A DNA stretch of 64,000 nt, taken from positions 706,001 through 770,000 of the forward strand of contig JASJDC010000002.1 of assembly GCA_030065235.1 (NCBI GenBank), read 5' to 3'. This DNA comes from Alphaproteobacteria bacterium (GTDB lineage Bacteria > Pseudomonadota > Alphaproteobacteria > UBA8366 > Aestuariispiraceae). Both the position numbers and the translations under genes were made by a program. Below, in pieces: positions 4,515 through 20,948 of this stretch; positions within the stretch are counted from its first letter, which is position 1; each line of letters opens with the position of its first letter. The notes below the pieces were generated by a model that was not told the origin of the DNA, ran no database searches, and saw nothing but the letters and a program-made list of their open reading frames with translations.

Positions 4515-5120
4515 TCAGACCATCAACGCGCCGGTCTGGCGCAAGAATCCGAGCAAAGGCGTTAATGGCAATCCCAGTATTGTGAAATAGTCGCCCTCTA
4601 TCCGGTCAAAGAGCTGCGCGCCCGACCCCTCCAACCGATAACCGCCCACTGACTTTATCGCGTCTTCGCCATCTGCATCCAGATAGGCGGTTAGAAAATC
4701 ATCGCTGAACGGGCGCATGGTCAAGTCCGCGGTCTCGACATGTCCCCAGATACGAGAGCCGGCCAGCGCGACGCACGCGCCGCTATGGAGACGATGGGTC
4801 TTGCCGCGCAGCGCCGTCAGATGGGCGCGCAAATGATCCATGTCCGGCGCCTTATCGAACCAGACATCGCCACAAGTCAGGATCTGATCAGCGCCGATTA
4901 CCAACGCGTCGGGATGGCGTCCTGAAATCTTGGTCGCCTTCATCTCAGCCAGAAACACGGCCGCATCACTGGGGTCGGCCTGCTCGGCTTGGAGCGAATG
5001 TTTGGCCGAATCCTCATCGATCCCGGCCGGGATTGCGTCGACGGTGAGGCCGGCGTTTTGCAGCAATGCGAGACGGGCCGCGCTGGCGCTCGCCAACAGG
5101 ATCGGGCGTGTTTGGTTCAA
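4515..5120 (-). CDS. maf: Maf family nucleotide pyrophosphatase
   Basis: Maf proteins hydrolyse nucleoside triphosphates, including modified ones, to monophosphates. The N-terminal substrate motif reads LASASAARLALL instead of the usual LASxSPRR, and the later motif is VIGADQIL with the catalytic Asp region. The altered motif is seen in origin-linked alphaproteobacterial members, and makes it unsafe to copy the E. coli YhdE/YceF specificity. The start is TTG at 5120, sharing TTGA with the stop of the upstream gene; GAGG lies about seven bases before it. Confidence 0.88.
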   Translation of the reverse strand: MNQTRPILLASASAARLALLQNAGLTVDAIPAGIDEDSAKHSLQAEQADPSDAAVFLAEMKATKISGRHPDALVIGADQILTCGDVWFDKAPDMDHLRAHLTALRGKTHRLHSGACVALAGSRIWGHVETADLTMRPFSDDFLTAYLDADGEDAIKSVGGYRLEGSGAQLFDRIEGDYFTILGLPLTPLLGFLRQTGALMV

Positions 5121-5989
5121 GCGGGCGCCTCGCTCGCGGAGACGGGCGCCGCCTTGGCCGCCGGCCGCGCATGGTCGCGCGCCTCAAGATGCTGCAGGAT
5201 GGTCGCCGCCGTCTCTTCGATCGATCGCCGGGAGACATCGATCACCGGCCAACCCTGATCGGTGAACAGCCGCCGCGCCGCGGTCACTTCCGCCCGGACA
5301 GTCTGAAGATCGACATAGTCGGTGTCCTTGTCCTCGGCGATCATCCGCAGTCGGTTGCGGCGGACCTGCACCAATCGGGCCGGGTCCTTGGTCAATCCGA
5401 TCACCAAAGGCCCGGGATCGCCGCCCTTGAATTGCAGCAATTCGTCAGGCAGCGGCACGCCGGGCACGATCGGCACATTCGCAGCCTTGAGACCGCGATT
5501 GGCCAGATAGAGGCATGTCGGCGATTTCGAGGTCCGGCTAACGCCGGTCAGCACCACATCCGCGGAACCGAGATTCCAGAGCCCTTGCCCGTCATCATGG
5601 TTCAGGGCGAACTGCATCGCGTCGATCCGCTCGAAATATTCATCATCCAGCAAATGTTGGCGGCCCGGCATATTCCGGGTTTCGGCCCCGAAATGCTCCC
5701 GCAGAGTATTGATGATCGGGTCGAGCACCGAGATGGCCGGCACATTCATCGCCCGGCAAGCGGCGTCCAAGCGATCCCGGATTTCGCTGTTCACCAAAGT
5801 GTAAAAAACGACGCCCGGATTCTCGCGCAGGGTCTGAACGATCTTGTCGACCTGTCCCACGGTGCGGATCAACGGCCAGGTATGTTCCTGAATCTGCATT
5901 TCTTCGAATTGCACCAGACAGGCGCGCGCCAGATTATGGACGGTCTCTCCGGTGGAGTCCGAGACAAGATGAACATGGGTGACGGACAC
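5117..5989 (-). CDS. Pyruvate phosphate dikinase / PEP synthase regulatory protein (DUF299, kinase-pyrophosphorylase)
   Basis: Family members switch PPDK or PEP synthase off and on by ADP-dependent phosphorylation and phosphate-dependent dephosphorylation. The LVSDSTGETV motif near residue 9 and the P-loop-like GVSRTSKSPTCLYLANRG around residue 150 are diagnostic. The frame extends to a TTG at 6001, but GGAG six bases before the GTG at 5989 favours that start, giving 290 residues. In Caulobacter and Rickettsia the homologue (the RP001 family) borders the origin, as it does here. Confidence 0.92.
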   Translation of the reverse strand: MSVTHVHLVSDSTGETVHNLARACLVQFEEMQIQEHTWPLIRTVGQVDKIVQTLRENPGVVFYTLVNSEIRDRLDAACRAMNVPAISVLDPIINTLREHFGAETRNMPGRQHLLDDEYFERIDAMQFALNHDDGQGLWNLGSADVVLTGVSRTSKSPTCLYLANRGLKAANVPIVPGVPLPDELLQFKGGDPGPLVIGLTKDPARLVQVRRNRLRMIAEDKDTDYVDLQTVRAEVTAARRLFTDQGWPVIDVSRRSIEETAATILQHLEARDHARPAAKAAPVSASEAPA

Positions 5990-6599
5990 GGTGAACTCCA
6001 AATCAGTGAAGCCTGGTGACTCGGGTCAGACTTGCGCGGGACGACGGGTATCACCCGCTGGGCATGAAACCGTGGACAACAGCGTGCATTGCCTATGGAT
6101 CAGACCAAAACGCCAAAAGACGCCCAGGTTTCAACTCTTCTGCACCCGCTTTCGAACTAGACTATATCCAGCTTGTTCGACCCCGTATAGCAAGCCGACT
6201 TTCGGGGACAAGCGTTAGGCGGCCGTGTTACGCCCGCGACTCACAGACCGGTCCATTGCCCCGGTCTCGCGCCAATTGGTCCAAATTGTCGCACTCTTTT
6301 CACAGCTTGGCGCCCAGACTGCAAAGATAGGAAGGACCGGGGACCGAATCCGGGATCAAATTTAATCCCCGTTGTTCCCGCCGCCAAATACCACTTCCTC
6401 ATCCTTCTTTTTATCTTTTCTCTTTGTTGAATCTCCGATCGGCCAATCTCGCGCTTGTCTTGAAAAAGAACGGTCGATCAACGGGTTGAATAGGGTCTTT
6501 CGGTTGGATCATCGATTGACTAACACGGTCTCAAAGGCGATGACCGGGTAGGGCGTGTCGGGCGCGCCGATTGGGGTGGGCGCAGAGTTGGGGAGTTCG
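5990..6599. other. oriC: Predicted chromosomal replication origin (oriC) in the hemE upstream gap
   Basis: This 610-base gap between divergent genes has no credible coding frame. Its position between the DUF299 gene and hemE is that of the Caulobacter origin. It holds a pyrimidine-rich, AT-rich tract at 6394-6433; four GANTC (CcrM-type) sites at 6018, 6238, 6346 and 6429; and only weak DnaA-box candidates: CTTTTCACA at 6296-6304 (8 of 9 to TTWTNCACA), the reverse-strand site at 6071-6079 and TATGGATCA at 6094-6102 (7 of 9 each). No full CtrA site was seen. TTGACT at 6516-6521 could be a -35 for hemE. The call rests mainly on synteny. Confidence 0.75.
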
Positions 6600-7658
6600 A
6601 TGAACGGTAAGGGAAACAGCGCTGTTAGGGGCGCCGAGAAACCCTTCTTGAAGGCGTTGGCTGGTGAGGCTTCGGACCGTCCGCCGATGTGGCTGATGCG
6701 TCAGGCGGGCCGCTATTTGCCGGAATATCGCGCCATTCGCGCCACGGTCAGCGGCTTTCTGGAGCTTTGCTACACGCCCGAACTTGCGACCGAAGTGACG
6801 CTTCAACCCATCCGCCGCTATGGTTTCGACGCGGCGATCCTGTTTTCCGACATTCTCGTGGTGCCCGACGCTCTGGGCCAGGAGGTCACCTTTGTCGAAG
6901 GCGAGGGGCCGAAACTGGCGCCGATCCGGAGCGCGGCCGAAGCGCGCACGCTTTCCGCGGATTGGATTCGGCAACGACTGGCCCCAGTCTTTGAGACAGT
7001 CGAGTCGGTGCGGTCGAAGCTGCCCGACGAAACCGCCTTGATCGGTTTCGCCGGGGCGCCTTGGACGGTGGCCTGCTATATGGTGGAAGGCGGCGGCAGT
7101 CGCGACTTCACCGAAGTGAAACGCTTCGCCTATCAGGATCCGAAAAGCTTTCAGGACGTGATCGATGTGCTGGTCGACGGCACGATCGATTATCTTTGCG
7201 CCCAGGTCGAGGCTGGTGCCGACGCGCTGCAACTGTTCGACACCTGGGCCGGCGTGCTCCCGGACGACGCCTTCGCCGCGTATGTGACTGAGCCGGCGCG
7301 GAAAATCGTCGCTGGCGTTCGCGCTAAACATCCAGACATCCCGATGATCGGTTTTCCACGCGGGGCCGGCGTCGGCTATGCGCGCTACTTGGATCAGACC
7401 GGCGTTAACGGCGTCTCGATCGATGTCGCGGTCGATCTAGACTGGGCGGCCAAGACCTTGCAGCCGAAAGGCGCGGTGCAAGGGAATCTTGACCCACAGC
7501 GTCTGTTGGTCGGCGGCGATGGTCTGAACGCGGCGGCGGACCGTATTCTGACTGCTTTCTCCGACGGCCCTTTCATCTTCAATTTGGGTCACGGCGTGAT
7601 CAAGGAAACGCCTCCAGAGCATGTTGAGGCTCTGGTTGAGCGGGTGCGCGGTCGGTAA
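6600..7658 (+). CDS. hemE: Uroporphyrinogen decarboxylase
   Basis: HemE decarboxylates the four acetate side chains of uroporphyrinogen III to give coproporphyrinogen III. The family signature PPMWLMRQAGRYLPEY is at residues 28-43, and ILFSDILVVPDALG holds the catalytic Asp region. GGGAG at 6591-6595 lies just before the ATG at 6600; this start gives the usual 352 residues, whereas the GTG at 6555 would add 15 unlikely ones. It is the first gene right of the predicted origin and heads the heme cluster hemE-hemH-hemJ. Confidence 0.96.
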   Translation: MNGKGNSAVRGAEKPFLKALAGEASDRPPMWLMRQAGRYLPEYRAIRATVSGFLELCYTPELATEVTLQPIRRYGFDAAILFSDILVVPDALGQEVTFVEGEGPKLAPIRSAAEARTLSADWIRQRLAPVFETVESVRSKLPDETALIGFAGAPWTVACYMVEGGGSRDFTEVKRFAYQDPKSFQDVIDVLVDGTIDYLCAQVEAGADALQLFDTWAGVLPDDAFAAYVTEPARKIVAGVRAKHPDIPMIGFPRGAGVGYARYLDQTGVNGVSIDVAVDLDWAAKTLQPKGAVQGNLDPQRLLVGGDGLNAAADRILTAFSDGPFIFNLGHGVIKETPPEHVEALVERVRGR

Positions 7659-16901: not shown

Positions 16902-18221
16902 ATGAGCGCCGGCGATACGATCTTCGCCTTGTCCAGTCCGCCCGGCCGTGGCGGGGTGGCGGTGTTCCGCGTTTCAGGTCCGGACGCGCGGACCGCGTTT
17001 GGCTTGTTTCACGTGAAACAGCCGGCGCCGCGGGTCGCGTCGCGGGCCACGTTGCGCACTGATGTGCGTGAGCCGATCGACGATGCGCTGGTCTTGTGGT
17101 TTCCCGGCCCGAAGAGTTTTACCGGCGAAGACAGCGTCGAACTCCACACCCATAGCGGTCTGGCGGTGATCCAGGCGGTGTTGGACGCGCTGGGGGCTGC
17201 GTCAGGATTTCGGCTGGCTGAGCCTGGGGAGTTCGCGCGTCGCGCCTTCGATCATGGCAAAATCGATTTGGTCGAGGCGGAGGGGCTGCTTGACCTGATC
17301 GATGCGGAAACCCAGGCCCAACGGCGTCAGGCTTTGCGCCAATATGGCGGCGCGCTCAGCGCGCTCTATGAGGCTTGGCAGCACCGGATCGCGGATTGGT
17401 TGGCTCAGCTGGAGGCGGAAATCGATTTTGGCGATGAGGGGGATGTCGTCGAGACCCTCCGGAGCCTCGATGGTGCGGCGATTGAAGCGCTAATCGATGA
17501 GATGGATCGGCATCTGGCGGATAGCCGGCAAGGTGAAATTCTTCGAACCGGTCTGCGGGTGGCTATTGTGGGCGCGCCGAATGTCGGCAAATCGAGCCTG
17601 TTGAACTCTCTGGCCAAACGGGATGCGGCGATTGTGTCGGAGTTCGCCGGCACCACGCGCGATCGGATTGAGGTGGCGCTCGATATTGCCGGATTCCCGG
17701 TGCATTTGGTTGATACGGCTGGCCTCCGCGAGACGGCGGATCCGGTGGAGCAAGAGGGTGTTCGACGGTCCCTACGGTCTGCTCAAGAGGCGGACCTGGT
17801 TCTAGATGTCCGCGCTGTTGGATCTGACCCGCTGGGCGCGGGGTTTGACCATAATGCGCCAATACTAAGGGTGTTGAACAAAGGGGATCTGTTGCCCGAG
17901 CAAAAGCTGGATTTAACGGAGGATATTGATCTAGTCGTCTCGGCGCATACCGGTGCTGGTATTGATCGGTTGGAGGCGGCTTTGGCGGAGAAGGTTGGCG
18001 CGCTTTCCGCATCGGAGACGCCGGTGATTACGCGGGAACGTCATCGGTTGGCGGTTACGTCAGCGCAGGATGGGTTGAAAGCGGTATTGCTGGAGCAGGA
18101 TCCGGTTCTGGCTGCAGAAAGGCTGCGGAGATCGCTGACGGACCTCGCCCGCGTCGTTGGACGGCTTGATGTGGAGCAGCTCTTAGATCGGATCTTCTCG
18201 CAATTCTGCATTGGCAAATAG
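16902..18221 (+). CDS. mnmE: tRNA uridine-5-carboxymethylaminomethyl(34) synthesis GTPase MnmE
   Basis: MnmE acts with MnmG to install the carboxymethylaminomethyl group at wobble uridine 34 of tRNAs. The N terminus TIFALSSPPGRGGVAVFRVSG, the FTGEDSVELHTHSG folate-binding region, the G1 loop GAPNVGKSS, G3 DTAGLRE and the terminal Cys-Ile-Gly-Lys are all present. GAGG eight bases ahead favours the ATG at 16902 over a GTG at 16893, giving 439 residues. Codons for Leu-Phe-His-Val-Lys-Gln near residue 37 contain a perfect parS site. Confidence 0.96.
   Translation: MSAGDTIFALSSPPGRGGVAVFRVSGPDARTAFGLFHVKQPAPRVASRATLRTDVREPIDDALVLWFPGPKSFTGEDSVELHTHSGLAVIQAVLDALGAASGFRLAEPGEFARRAFDHGKIDLVEAEGLLDLIDAETQAQRRQALRQYGGALSALYEAWQHRIADWLAQLEAEIDFGDEGDVVETLRSLDGAAIEALIDEMDRHLADSRQGEILRTGLRVAIVGAPNVGKSSLLNSLAKRDAAIVSEFAGTTRDRIEVALDIAGFPVHLVDTAGLRETADPVEQEGVRRSLRSAQEADLVLDVRAVGSDPLGAGFDHNAPILRVLNKGDLLPEQKLDLTEDIDLVVSAHTGAGIDRLEAALAEKVGALSASETPVITRERHRLAVTSAQDGLKAVLLEQDPVLAAERLRRSLTDLARVVGRLDVEQLLDRIFSQFCIGK
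17005..17020. other. parS: parS centromere site 1 (inside mnmE)
   Basis: The 16-bp perfect palindrome TGTTTCACGTGAAACA equals the conserved chromosomal parS consensus bound by ParB. It overlaps the coding frame of mnmE. The parA-parB genes are about 4 kb downstream and two more identical sites follow, which makes the identification very secure. Confidence 0.95.
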
Positions 18222-18241: not shown

Positions 18242-18257
18242 TGTTTCACGTGAAACA
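18242..18257. other. parS: parS centromere site 2 (mnmE-mnmG gap)
   Basis: A second copy of TGTTTCACGTGAAACA, identical to sites 1 and 3, lies 20 bases after the mnmE stop in the intergenic gap. This is the only one of the three not constrained by a protein-coding frame. Confidence 0.95.
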
Positions 18258-20297: not shown

Positions 20298-20948
20298 ATG
20301 GACGGCGCTTCGGAAATCCCAGGCCCAGTCCTCGAGCAAATCCAAGCCTGGACCCCTGTTTCACGTGAAACATCGGCGCGTCTGGCCGCCTACGCTGCGC
20401 TTCTGCGCCGGTGGAATGGGGCGATCAATCTGGTCAGCCCCAAGAGTCTCGATGATATGGCGCGCCGACATTTTCTCGATTCCGCGCAACTTATCCGATA
20501 TCTGCCGCGCGGCGACCACCTCAACGCCCTGCATATTGTCGATCTCGGATCGGGCGCCGGGTTTCCAGGACTTGTCCTTGGCGTTCTCACCCCGTGTCGT
20601 GTGACTTTGATCGAGTCCGATCGGCGAAAGTGTGAATTTCTGCGGCAGGTGGCTCGCGAGACCGCGTGCAAGCATGTGTCTGTCCTGACGGAACGTATCG
20701 AAAGCGCCGCGCCTGACGGCGCCGATATCGTCACCGCCCGCGCCCTCGCGCCGGTTTCACAGCTCTTAAGCTTCGCCGAGAACATCTTAAAGCCGGATGG
20801 CTTCTGCCTTTTCCTAAAAGGAAATACGCTTGGCGCCGAATTGACGGAAGCCAAAAAGGTGTGGCATATAGATTCGCAGGAACTTCAAAGCGTAACCCAT
20901 CCGGATGGCCGGGTGTTGCGCATCGATCGGTTCGACCGAATACGCTAA
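20298..20948 (+). CDS. rsmG: 16S rRNA (guanine(527)-N7)-methyltransferase RsmG
   Basis: RsmG methylates G527 of 16S rRNA, using SAM; loss confers low-level streptomycin resistance in other bacteria. The 216-residue protein has RWNGAINLVSPKSLDDMARRHFLDSAQL, the SAM-binding VDLGSGAGFPGLVLG near residue 92 and ARALAPVSQLL. It begins 12 bases after mnmG stops. The codons for Val-Ser-Arg-Glu-Thr (residues 21-25) form the third parS site. Confidence 0.95.
   Translation: MDGASEIPGPVLEQIQAWTPVSRETSARLAAYAALLRRWNGAINLVSPKSLDDMARRHFLDSAQLIRYLPRGDHLNALHIVDLGSGAGFPGLVLGVLTPCRVTLIESDRRKCEFLRQVARETACKHVSVLTERIESAAPDGADIVTARALAPVSQLLSFAENILKPDGFCLFLKGNTLGAELTEAKKVWHIDSQELQSVTHPDGRVLRIDRFDRIR
20357..20372. 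other. parS: parS centromere site 3 (inside rsmG)
   Basis: The third perfect copy of TGTTTCACGTGAAACA lies within the start of rsmG, about 630 bases upstream of parA. Sites 1 to 3 span only 3.4 kb, the usual clustered arrangement near the origin; the predicted oriC is 10-14 kb away. Confidence 0.95.

Follow-up and report, generated by a model that had tools for sequence, protein, structure and literature searches.

The ppsR–hemE gap of an Aestuariispiraceae genome: a very likely chromosomal origin with weak DnaA boxes and a candidate variant DnaA-trio region

The intergenic gap between the divergent genes ppsR (DUF299) and hemE is very likely the chromosomal origin of replication (oriC) of this alphaproteobacterium, its location being supported by skew, gene context, parS sites and a single genome-wide match to a profile of related origins (R1). 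The type of location is ordinary and already known, as gaps between hemE and COG1806 genes are described as alphaproteobacterial origins in the available text of PMC1914354. The reading favoured here, to which a probability of about 0.82 is assigned, is that the gap is an origin at which DnaA would open an AT-rich tract from weak boxes via adjacent triplets. The analysed stretch (the window, 64 kb) corresponds to G000:C2:706001-770000 of a 19-contig, 4.18-Mb draft assembly.

Position and gene context of the gap

5117–6001, minus strand: ppsR/DUF299 (COG1806) regulatory gene, left boundary (ORF)
6002–6599, no strand: intergenic gap between ppsR (DUF299) and hemE, putative oriC (conserved neighbourhood; skew minima at 6126, 6404 and 6450)
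6600–7658, plus strand: hemE, right boundary (ORF)
17005–17020, plus strand: perfect parS TGTTTCACGTGAAACA (motif search)
18242–18257, plus strand: perfect parS (motif search)
20357–20372, plus strand: perfect parS (motif search)

The preliminary description of this DNA regarded the gap as a likely chromosomal origin with a DUF299 gene and hemE diverging from it, and both points hold, the ORF list placing ppsR on the minus and hemE on the plus strand around 6002-6599. Gene names, including these two, are presumptive: they come from recognition, except where a family hit is given, and the flanks were identified by eye and through matches in relatives. The G+C content of the gap is 0.55 against ~0.64 in its surroundings, so that A+T lies above the genome level. 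Matches to the hemE protein were obtained in 50 of the 59 genomes searched (own genome included). Among the best 30 hemE loci, one of which is that of the window, a divergent ppsR precedes hemE in 28 of 29 loci of relatives, the remaining one (L010) being cut by its own contig end; in 20 more distant hemE loci, ppsR is upstream in 10 and not in the other 10 (two of these short). Three perfect copies of parS TGTTTCACGTGAAACA are situated 10.6-14.0 kb from the conserved core described below, in and beside a mnmE-gidA-parAB stretch; they are the only sites returned by a search allowing up to two mismatches, where 0.04 were expected. The genome also carries genes for CtrA (NF045991, 388.2 bits, cut-off 350), for a GcrA-family protein and for a methyltransferase matching Pfam PF01555, which we take to be CcrM-like.

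The skew of contig C2 (1.13 Mb; 75% sampled, the remainder interpolated) points to the same place. The contig-wide minimum of cumulative GC+TA skew falls at C2:712404 (window 6404) and that of TA skew at C2:712126 (window 6126), while the GC-only minimum within 228-932 kb falls at C2:712450 (window 6450). A skew minimum far from the gap had been named as grounds for abandoning the origin; the contig-wide TA and GC+TA minima are instead inside it. Over the whole contig, the GC-only minimum is located near the contig start (C2:9335), because C2:1-228 kb is mostly of opposite polarity. The skew is weak, with a mean GC+TA per base of -0.018 on the left (520-712 kb) and +0.022 on the right (712-932 kb). 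The opposite polarity of G000:C2:1-228000 relative to 230-712 kb may reflect an inversion, an island effect or a misassembly; separately, 20 kb at G000:C2:199501-219500 (L056) have a G+C content of 0.467 against ~0.64 around them and are probably a genomic island.

The closed genome G001, from the same family, switches at the corresponding place: its sampled GC skew stays below zero from 3.1 Mb, past coordinate zero, to 620 kb and above zero from there to 2.76 Mb. The fine minimum, 627537, falls ~50 bp into ppsR (gene start extrapolated from the alignment), at the ppsR/hemE gap of that genome. A second relative, G011, gives -0.043 at 1.756-1.776 Mb, -0.004 at 1.776-1.796 Mb and +0.011 at 1.796-1.816 Mb; its gap is near 1.7765 Mb, from which the fine minima, 1.7818 and 1.7983 Mb, are ~5 and 22 kb distant. 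The skew scan of a third (G016) displayed no clear switch. KOPS polarity, assessed with what we presume to be the form of the motif, was set aside as origin evidence: sites were too few in the own genome, with more polarity in G001.

Known motifs in the gap

6071–6079, minus strand: degenerate DnaA box TTGTCCACG near ppsR (motif scan), near the CTGTGG-like block that family members have in the alignment
6094–6102, minus strand: G-box-like TGATCCATA, 8 of 9 positions to TGATCCACA (motif scan)
6203–6208, minus strand: W-box-like TCCCCG (motif scan)
6338–6343, minus strand: W-box-like TCCCCG (motif scan)
6589–6594, minus strand: W-box TCCCCA, the sole exact one (motif scan)

As the preliminary description had stated, the gap lacks a consensus DnaA box: there is no site within one mismatch of TTATCCACA, and two sites with two mismatches compare with 1.06 expected in shuffles. 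The whole 64-kb window contains four sites within one mismatch, at a chance mean of 3.94. The DnaA boxes of alphaproteobacterial origins, TTATNCACA, are likewise absent from the gap within one mismatch. The best box had been put at 8 of 9 positions, which agrees with TGATCCATA at 6094-6102 (minus strand) set against the Caulobacter G-box TGATCCACA. PMC4285127 and PMC4468827 describe both types of site, W-boxes (TCCCCA) and G-boxes, in Caulobacter, and TCCCCR occurs four times in the gap against 1.22 expected (P 0.015).

Other motifs are less informative. A full CtrA site had been reported missing, and TTAA-N7-TTAA is indeed absent from the gap, with one place at two mismatches. The four GANTC sites (6018, 6238, 6346, 6429) are present as described but form a weak argument alone, their enrichment not being significant (Poisson P 0.07 against window density; 0.375 against gap shuffles). 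Similarly, the pyrimidine tract at 6394-6433 is real (68% A+T, 85% pyrimidine) but is weak evidence alone and not unusual in the genome: no 40-base stretch starting at 6301-6499 has as many as 36 pyrimidines (or purines), while ~84 places in 856 kb do. IHF-like sites are represented by no exact copy and two copies at one mismatch to WATCAANNNNTTR, one form of the site. The scans for CtrA and IHF sites gave nothing convincing. For IHF, the form published for hemE/COG1806 origins is WATCAN5WTR, and not all elements are required in alphaproteobacterial origins (PMC1914354, available text). Of the two options initially offered, weak boxes or an origin elsewhere, the first has stood and the second has not.

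Architecture of the conserved core

6352–6413, plus strand: conserved unwinding core, match to the leave-window-out profile R1 (only genome match at E<=10, 33.3 bits)
6363–6371, plus strand: candidate DnaA box 1, TAATCCCCG, three mismatches to TTATCCACA, containing the W-box-like TCCCCG (position matrix and relatives' alignment)
6372–6380, plus strand: weak DnaA box 2, TTGTTCCCG, in tandem, four mismatches, at the same place as the relatives' TTATTCACC-like box 2
6381–6384, plus strand: G+C spacer CCGC
6385–6399, minus strand: candidate DnaA-trio region, read in the phase of the relatives: CAA ATA CCA CTT CCT on the top strand and 3'-GTT TAT GGT GAA GGA-5' on the trio strand (spacer 13, shared with 10 of 11 family members)
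6395–6418, minus strand: eight consecutive canonical 3'-NAN-5' triplets that begin 14 nt past box 2, in the AT/pyrimidine tract (alternative trio array)

The core at 6352-6413 becomes visible only by comparison with relatives and was therefore beyond the reach of the first description. Judged by sequence, it has the layout of the basal unwinding system (BUS), i.e., two putative weak DnaA boxes in tandem, a G+C spacer, candidate triplets and AT-rich DNA. The published BUS rule, as given in the available text of PMC8287927, calls for a main box with at most two mismatches to TTATCCACA and at least three 3'-NAN-5' triplets within 16 nt; both window boxes (three and four mismatches) are outside the main-box limit.

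The gaps of the family share a block, AATTTAATCCCC(A/G) or near it; in the alignment, DNA rich in C, in CAA/CCA and in A+T follows it. In cores from nine other families and from 20 loci of sphingomonads and three unplaced alphaproteobacteria, box 1 is TAATCC[C/A]C[A/G] or a variant, after which come an adjoining box 2 (alignment majority TTATTCACC), approximately four G+C-rich bases and the triplets. The relatives' main box TAATCCCCA has two mismatches to TTATCCACA, one fewer than TAATCCCCG of the window, and an exact TAATCCCCR is expected 0.01 times in gap shuffles. Box 1 was taken as the DnaA-box position because in two small-genome relatives, G043 and G040 (L227, L229), it is a perfect TTATCCACA with triplet repeats after it. 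As a separate observation, the 93%-complete G043 genome, with its perfect TTATCCACA box and CAA repeats beside hemE, gave no DnaA match.

The 57 anchored cores (56 without the window) were drawn from 63 gap entries after dropping L029 (two candidates), L032 (no match), L093/L094 (duplicates of L005/L004) and L109/L112 (no adjacent hemE). Since the anchors were set with an ordered list of relaxed patterns, and in six cases by eye (L031, L098, L100, L113, L114, L118), the 57 cores provide no prevalence figure.

Triplets adjoining the boxes

The triplets of the relatives follow a regular pattern. In the 25 cores from outside the family (nine families), C occupies +24, +27, +30, +33 and +36 from box 1 in 80-96%, and the third positions (+23, 26, 29, 32, 35) are A in 84, 56, 84, 92 and 60%, respectively. 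The middle positions (+25, 28, 31, 34; top strand) are A in 48-72%, T in 16-36% and C in 12-20%, so that the trio strand of the relatives reads 3'-G-[T>A>G]-T-5'. The lag-3 autocorrelation of C reaches a z of 12.5 in these cores, 3.1 in the 20 of the sphingomonad set and 2.0 in the 11 family members. The triplet phase used alongside it was picked to favour C first; the position matrix picks no phase. The window alone yields 0.3 at lag 3 and 2.7 at lag 6; its own triplets are irregular, and the period of three is significant in the relatives only.

The principal alternative accepts an origin here but supposes that the C-first triplets are not read by DnaA: opening would proceed by the NAN triplets at 6395-6418 or by an E. 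coli-like loop-back, and the repeat would serve another role (bendability, another protein). In the window, NAN triplets form a run of two from box 1 and a run of eight starting 14 nt past box 2 (four mismatches), and due to the latter, two readings of the trio array remain. This run is the longest among the 57 cores (the next being four; shuffle P 0.007; 5 of 9129 background positions). Counted from box 2, at least three NAN triplets also occur in 9/25 non-family and 5/20 sphingomonad-set cores, figures that have no shuffle baseline. Moreover, in B. subtilis, replacement of the middle A by C is tolerated while T or G is harmful to opening (PMC10721633, available text). Against this alternative, at least three NAN triplets within 16 nt of box 1 are found in 2/25 non-family cores (8.3 expected by shuffle), 0/11 family members (4.6) and 1/20 of the sphingomonad set (4.0), and the family count is again 0/11 from box 2. 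Furthermore, the C-first period of three in the relatives is strong and lies at the BUS spacing. Opening without the C-first triplets is thus considered unlikely, albeit deserving of real weight.

A control search for canonical trios in non-alphaproteobacteria whose DnaA bears Asn187 gave one clear array in seven loci (L220: CTA CTA CTA ATT TTT TTA); the other six may not hold origins. The canonical array of L220, opening with CTA CTA CTA, begins 10 nt after TTGTTCACA.

The DnaA reader residue

The reference for comparison was B. subtilis DnaA on BUS (structure 8btg), in which Asn187 reads the middle A, while Glu228 and Arg202 read the first G. In the own DnaA, Asn187 is replaced by Tyr, Arg202 by Lys, Ile193 by Leu and Asn196 by Lys; Glu228, Glu183 and Ile190 are kept. 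Position 187 is Tyr in 43, Phe in 2, Leu in 1 and Arg in 1 of 47 alphaproteobacterial DnaAs (own included; best-scoring loci). Where identity is ~65% or more, Tyr is found in 42/43, and the four divergent proteins (53% identity or less; L188-L190, L222) have Phe, Leu, Arg and Tyr. Among 24 other Pseudomonadota DnaAs, the residue is Ala in 7, Thr in 7, Asn in 7 and Gln in 3, with Tyr in 0/24. The DnaAs read were the best-scoring ones, namely 24/44 from non-alphaproteobacteria and 5/14 further alphaproteobacterial ones (own and G046 aside), leaving out nine divergent alphaproteobacterial and 20 non-alphaproteobacterial proteins.

A coupling between residue and triplets is offered as a hypothesis, because Asn187 is not universal outside Alphaproteobacteria either. 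Families f28 and f35, in which no clear core was seen, are among those with divergent DnaAs, which would fit such a coupling. Two further observations concern DnaA itself: in the non-alphaproteobacterial family f40 (L209, L214, L217-L220, L223), 7/7 DnaAs have Asn187 and Arg202 as in B. subtilis, and G002:C15, G007:C17 and G039:C7 and C11 hold extra matches to the DnaA DNA-binding domain alone.

Distribution of the core

Searches with R1, a sequence profile built from 35 cores of 34 genomes (G029 gave two) with the window left out, are less biased tests than the anchored cores. Over the own 4.18-Mb genome, R1 gave one match at E<=10, at C2:712352-712413 (window 6352-6413; 33.3 bits), and the window core was again the sole match in a search over 858 kb. 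At E<=1e-3, R1 matched 11/39 alphaproteobacterial genomes, four of which (G036, G042, G044, G050) had fed the profile, and 0/28 other Pseudomonadota. The latter rise to 1/28 at E<=0.01 and to 6/28 at E<=0.1 (best E 0.003), where alphaproteobacterial matches number 17/39; under these strict filters, 22/39 alphaproteobacterial genomes gave no match at E<=0.1.

The presence of the core varies with the locus. Of 11 ppsR-adjacent hemE loci inspected by eye, four are core-like (L292, L293, L299, L306) and seven (families f28, f35) have no clear core, offering repeats without a clear box or nothing clear. In 13 genomes where hemE lacks an upstream ppsR, the core is present in four (G040, G043, G054, G057) and was not seen by eye in seven (G039, G041, G045, G056, G092, G096, G104); G047 has CAA repeats with no clear box, and G053 could not be judged. 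Among genomes whose hemE has neither ppsR nor core, the core is shown to sit elsewhere for G056 only. A weak R1 match in a non-alphaproteobacterium (L245 of G068, E 0.067) comes with a perfect TTATCCACA and lies ~165 bp upstream of hemE, dnaA being ~15 kb away; this is perhaps a hemE-side origin outside the class, or chance.

Alternatively, the conserved block might belong to the promoter or leader of hemE (or of ppsR) and be no origin element. Its distance upstream of hemE is 39-160 bp in relatives (ambiguous L029 aside), and 10 of the 11 alphaproteobacterial R1 matches at E<=1e-3 are at or just upstream of this gene. Nevertheless, the window core is 237 bp from hemE and coincides with the skew minimum, and two genomes carry the core inside the same gene cluster although neither hemE nor ppsR adjoins it. 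The G037 match (E 3.4e-5) separates rho from maf, in a genome that is 81% complete and gave no hemE match; the weaker one in G056 (E 0.005, no better than the best non-alphaproteobacterial 0.003) is flanked by maf and hemJ-rho, and hemE, located on a different contig, has no core seen upstream of it. A promoter element is accordingly judged very improbable. An origin elsewhere, for instance beside dnaA (C2 ~496 kb, 215 kb from the gap), is scarcely credible: although dnaA is away from the gap and the 19-contig draft has weak skew, no sustained negative-to-positive skew switch occurs near dnaA on the own contig, R1 has no second match in the genome, and the dnaA of G001 is 0.29 Mb from its skew minimum.

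Proposed mechanism and implications

On the favoured reading of a triplet-assisted origin, DnaA binding and unwinding at the core are inferred. The weak distal sites would help DnaA to dock on the two tandem weak boxes (6363-6380), from which a DnaA filament would grow along the triplets next to them (6385-6418), on their minus strand; by stretching the AT-rich tract, the filament would open it and permit helicase loading. The candidate opening element appears BUS-like yet fails the formal box-mismatch rule, and in the relatives the triplets appear to break the central-adenine rule, alongside an altered reader residue. It can be inferred that the DnaA of this clade reads 3'-G-N-T-5' triplets (middle mostly T) with Tyr at the place of B. 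subtilis Asn187. Extended to a large part of Alphaproteobacteria, this would amount to a shifted DnaA-trio code of BUS-type 3'-G-N-T-5' triplets (T being the commonest middle base) with Tyr for Asn187 and, in many lineages, a W-box-like trio-proximal box of the TAATCCCC type, the family of the window being an extreme case, with weak boxes and, in 11 relatives, a middle A in no more than 13 of 55 triplets and never three in a row; such a generalisation is tentative, at somewhat less than even odds.

There is apparently no earlier report of such a changed code. The accessible literature on DnaA-trios with alphaproteobacteria or Caulobacter (most subscription papers and all supplements being beyond scope) holds no account of trios without a middle adenine, and the available text of a 2021 survey records its authors' suspicion of deviant trios of this kind (PMC8287927). 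Adenine-less triplets at the expected place in several alphaproteobacterial families, along with a replaced reader residue, make this suspicion directly testable. The core profile additionally serves as a sequence handle for origins in alphaproteobacteria with weak skew and unrecognisable DnaA boxes.

Comparison with known systems

With the Cori of Caulobacter crescentus and other hemE/COG1806 origins, the gap shares its boundary genes, a skew shift and raised A+T (PMC1914354, PMC4468827; available texts). Weak putative DnaA sites are a further resemblance, the gap having the G-box-like TGATCCATA and TCCCCR sites similar to the W-box TCCCCA. Box 1 contains TCCCCG, and one exact TCCCCA is at 6589-6594. 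In contrast to Cori, the gap lacks both a CtrA site, despite the CtrA gene, and any sequence within one mismatch of TTATCCACA. The resemblance to Caulobacter suggested at the outset is retained for position and weak W-box-like sites but not for CtrA sites.

Compared with the E. coli oriC DUE, the 5'-TTG-3' repeats on the relatives' trio strand resemble the single-stranded DNA motif 5'-TTGT-3' (PMC10797057, available text). The gene context is different, however, the window has no exact IHF-like site and two at one mismatch, and the box-to-triplet spacing is that of BUS.

With the BUS of B. subtilis and others, the core has in common its tandem boxes, a distance of 10-13 nt from the main box, G-first triplets and AT-rich DNA beyond them (PMC8287927, PMC6669920, PMC10721633; available texts). 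It differs in that the main box is TAATCC[C/A]C[A/G] instead of TTATCCACA, the middle base in relatives is mostly T and not the 'obligatory' A, DnaA carries Tyr and Lys in place of Asn187 and Arg202, respectively, and the array of the window is irregular.
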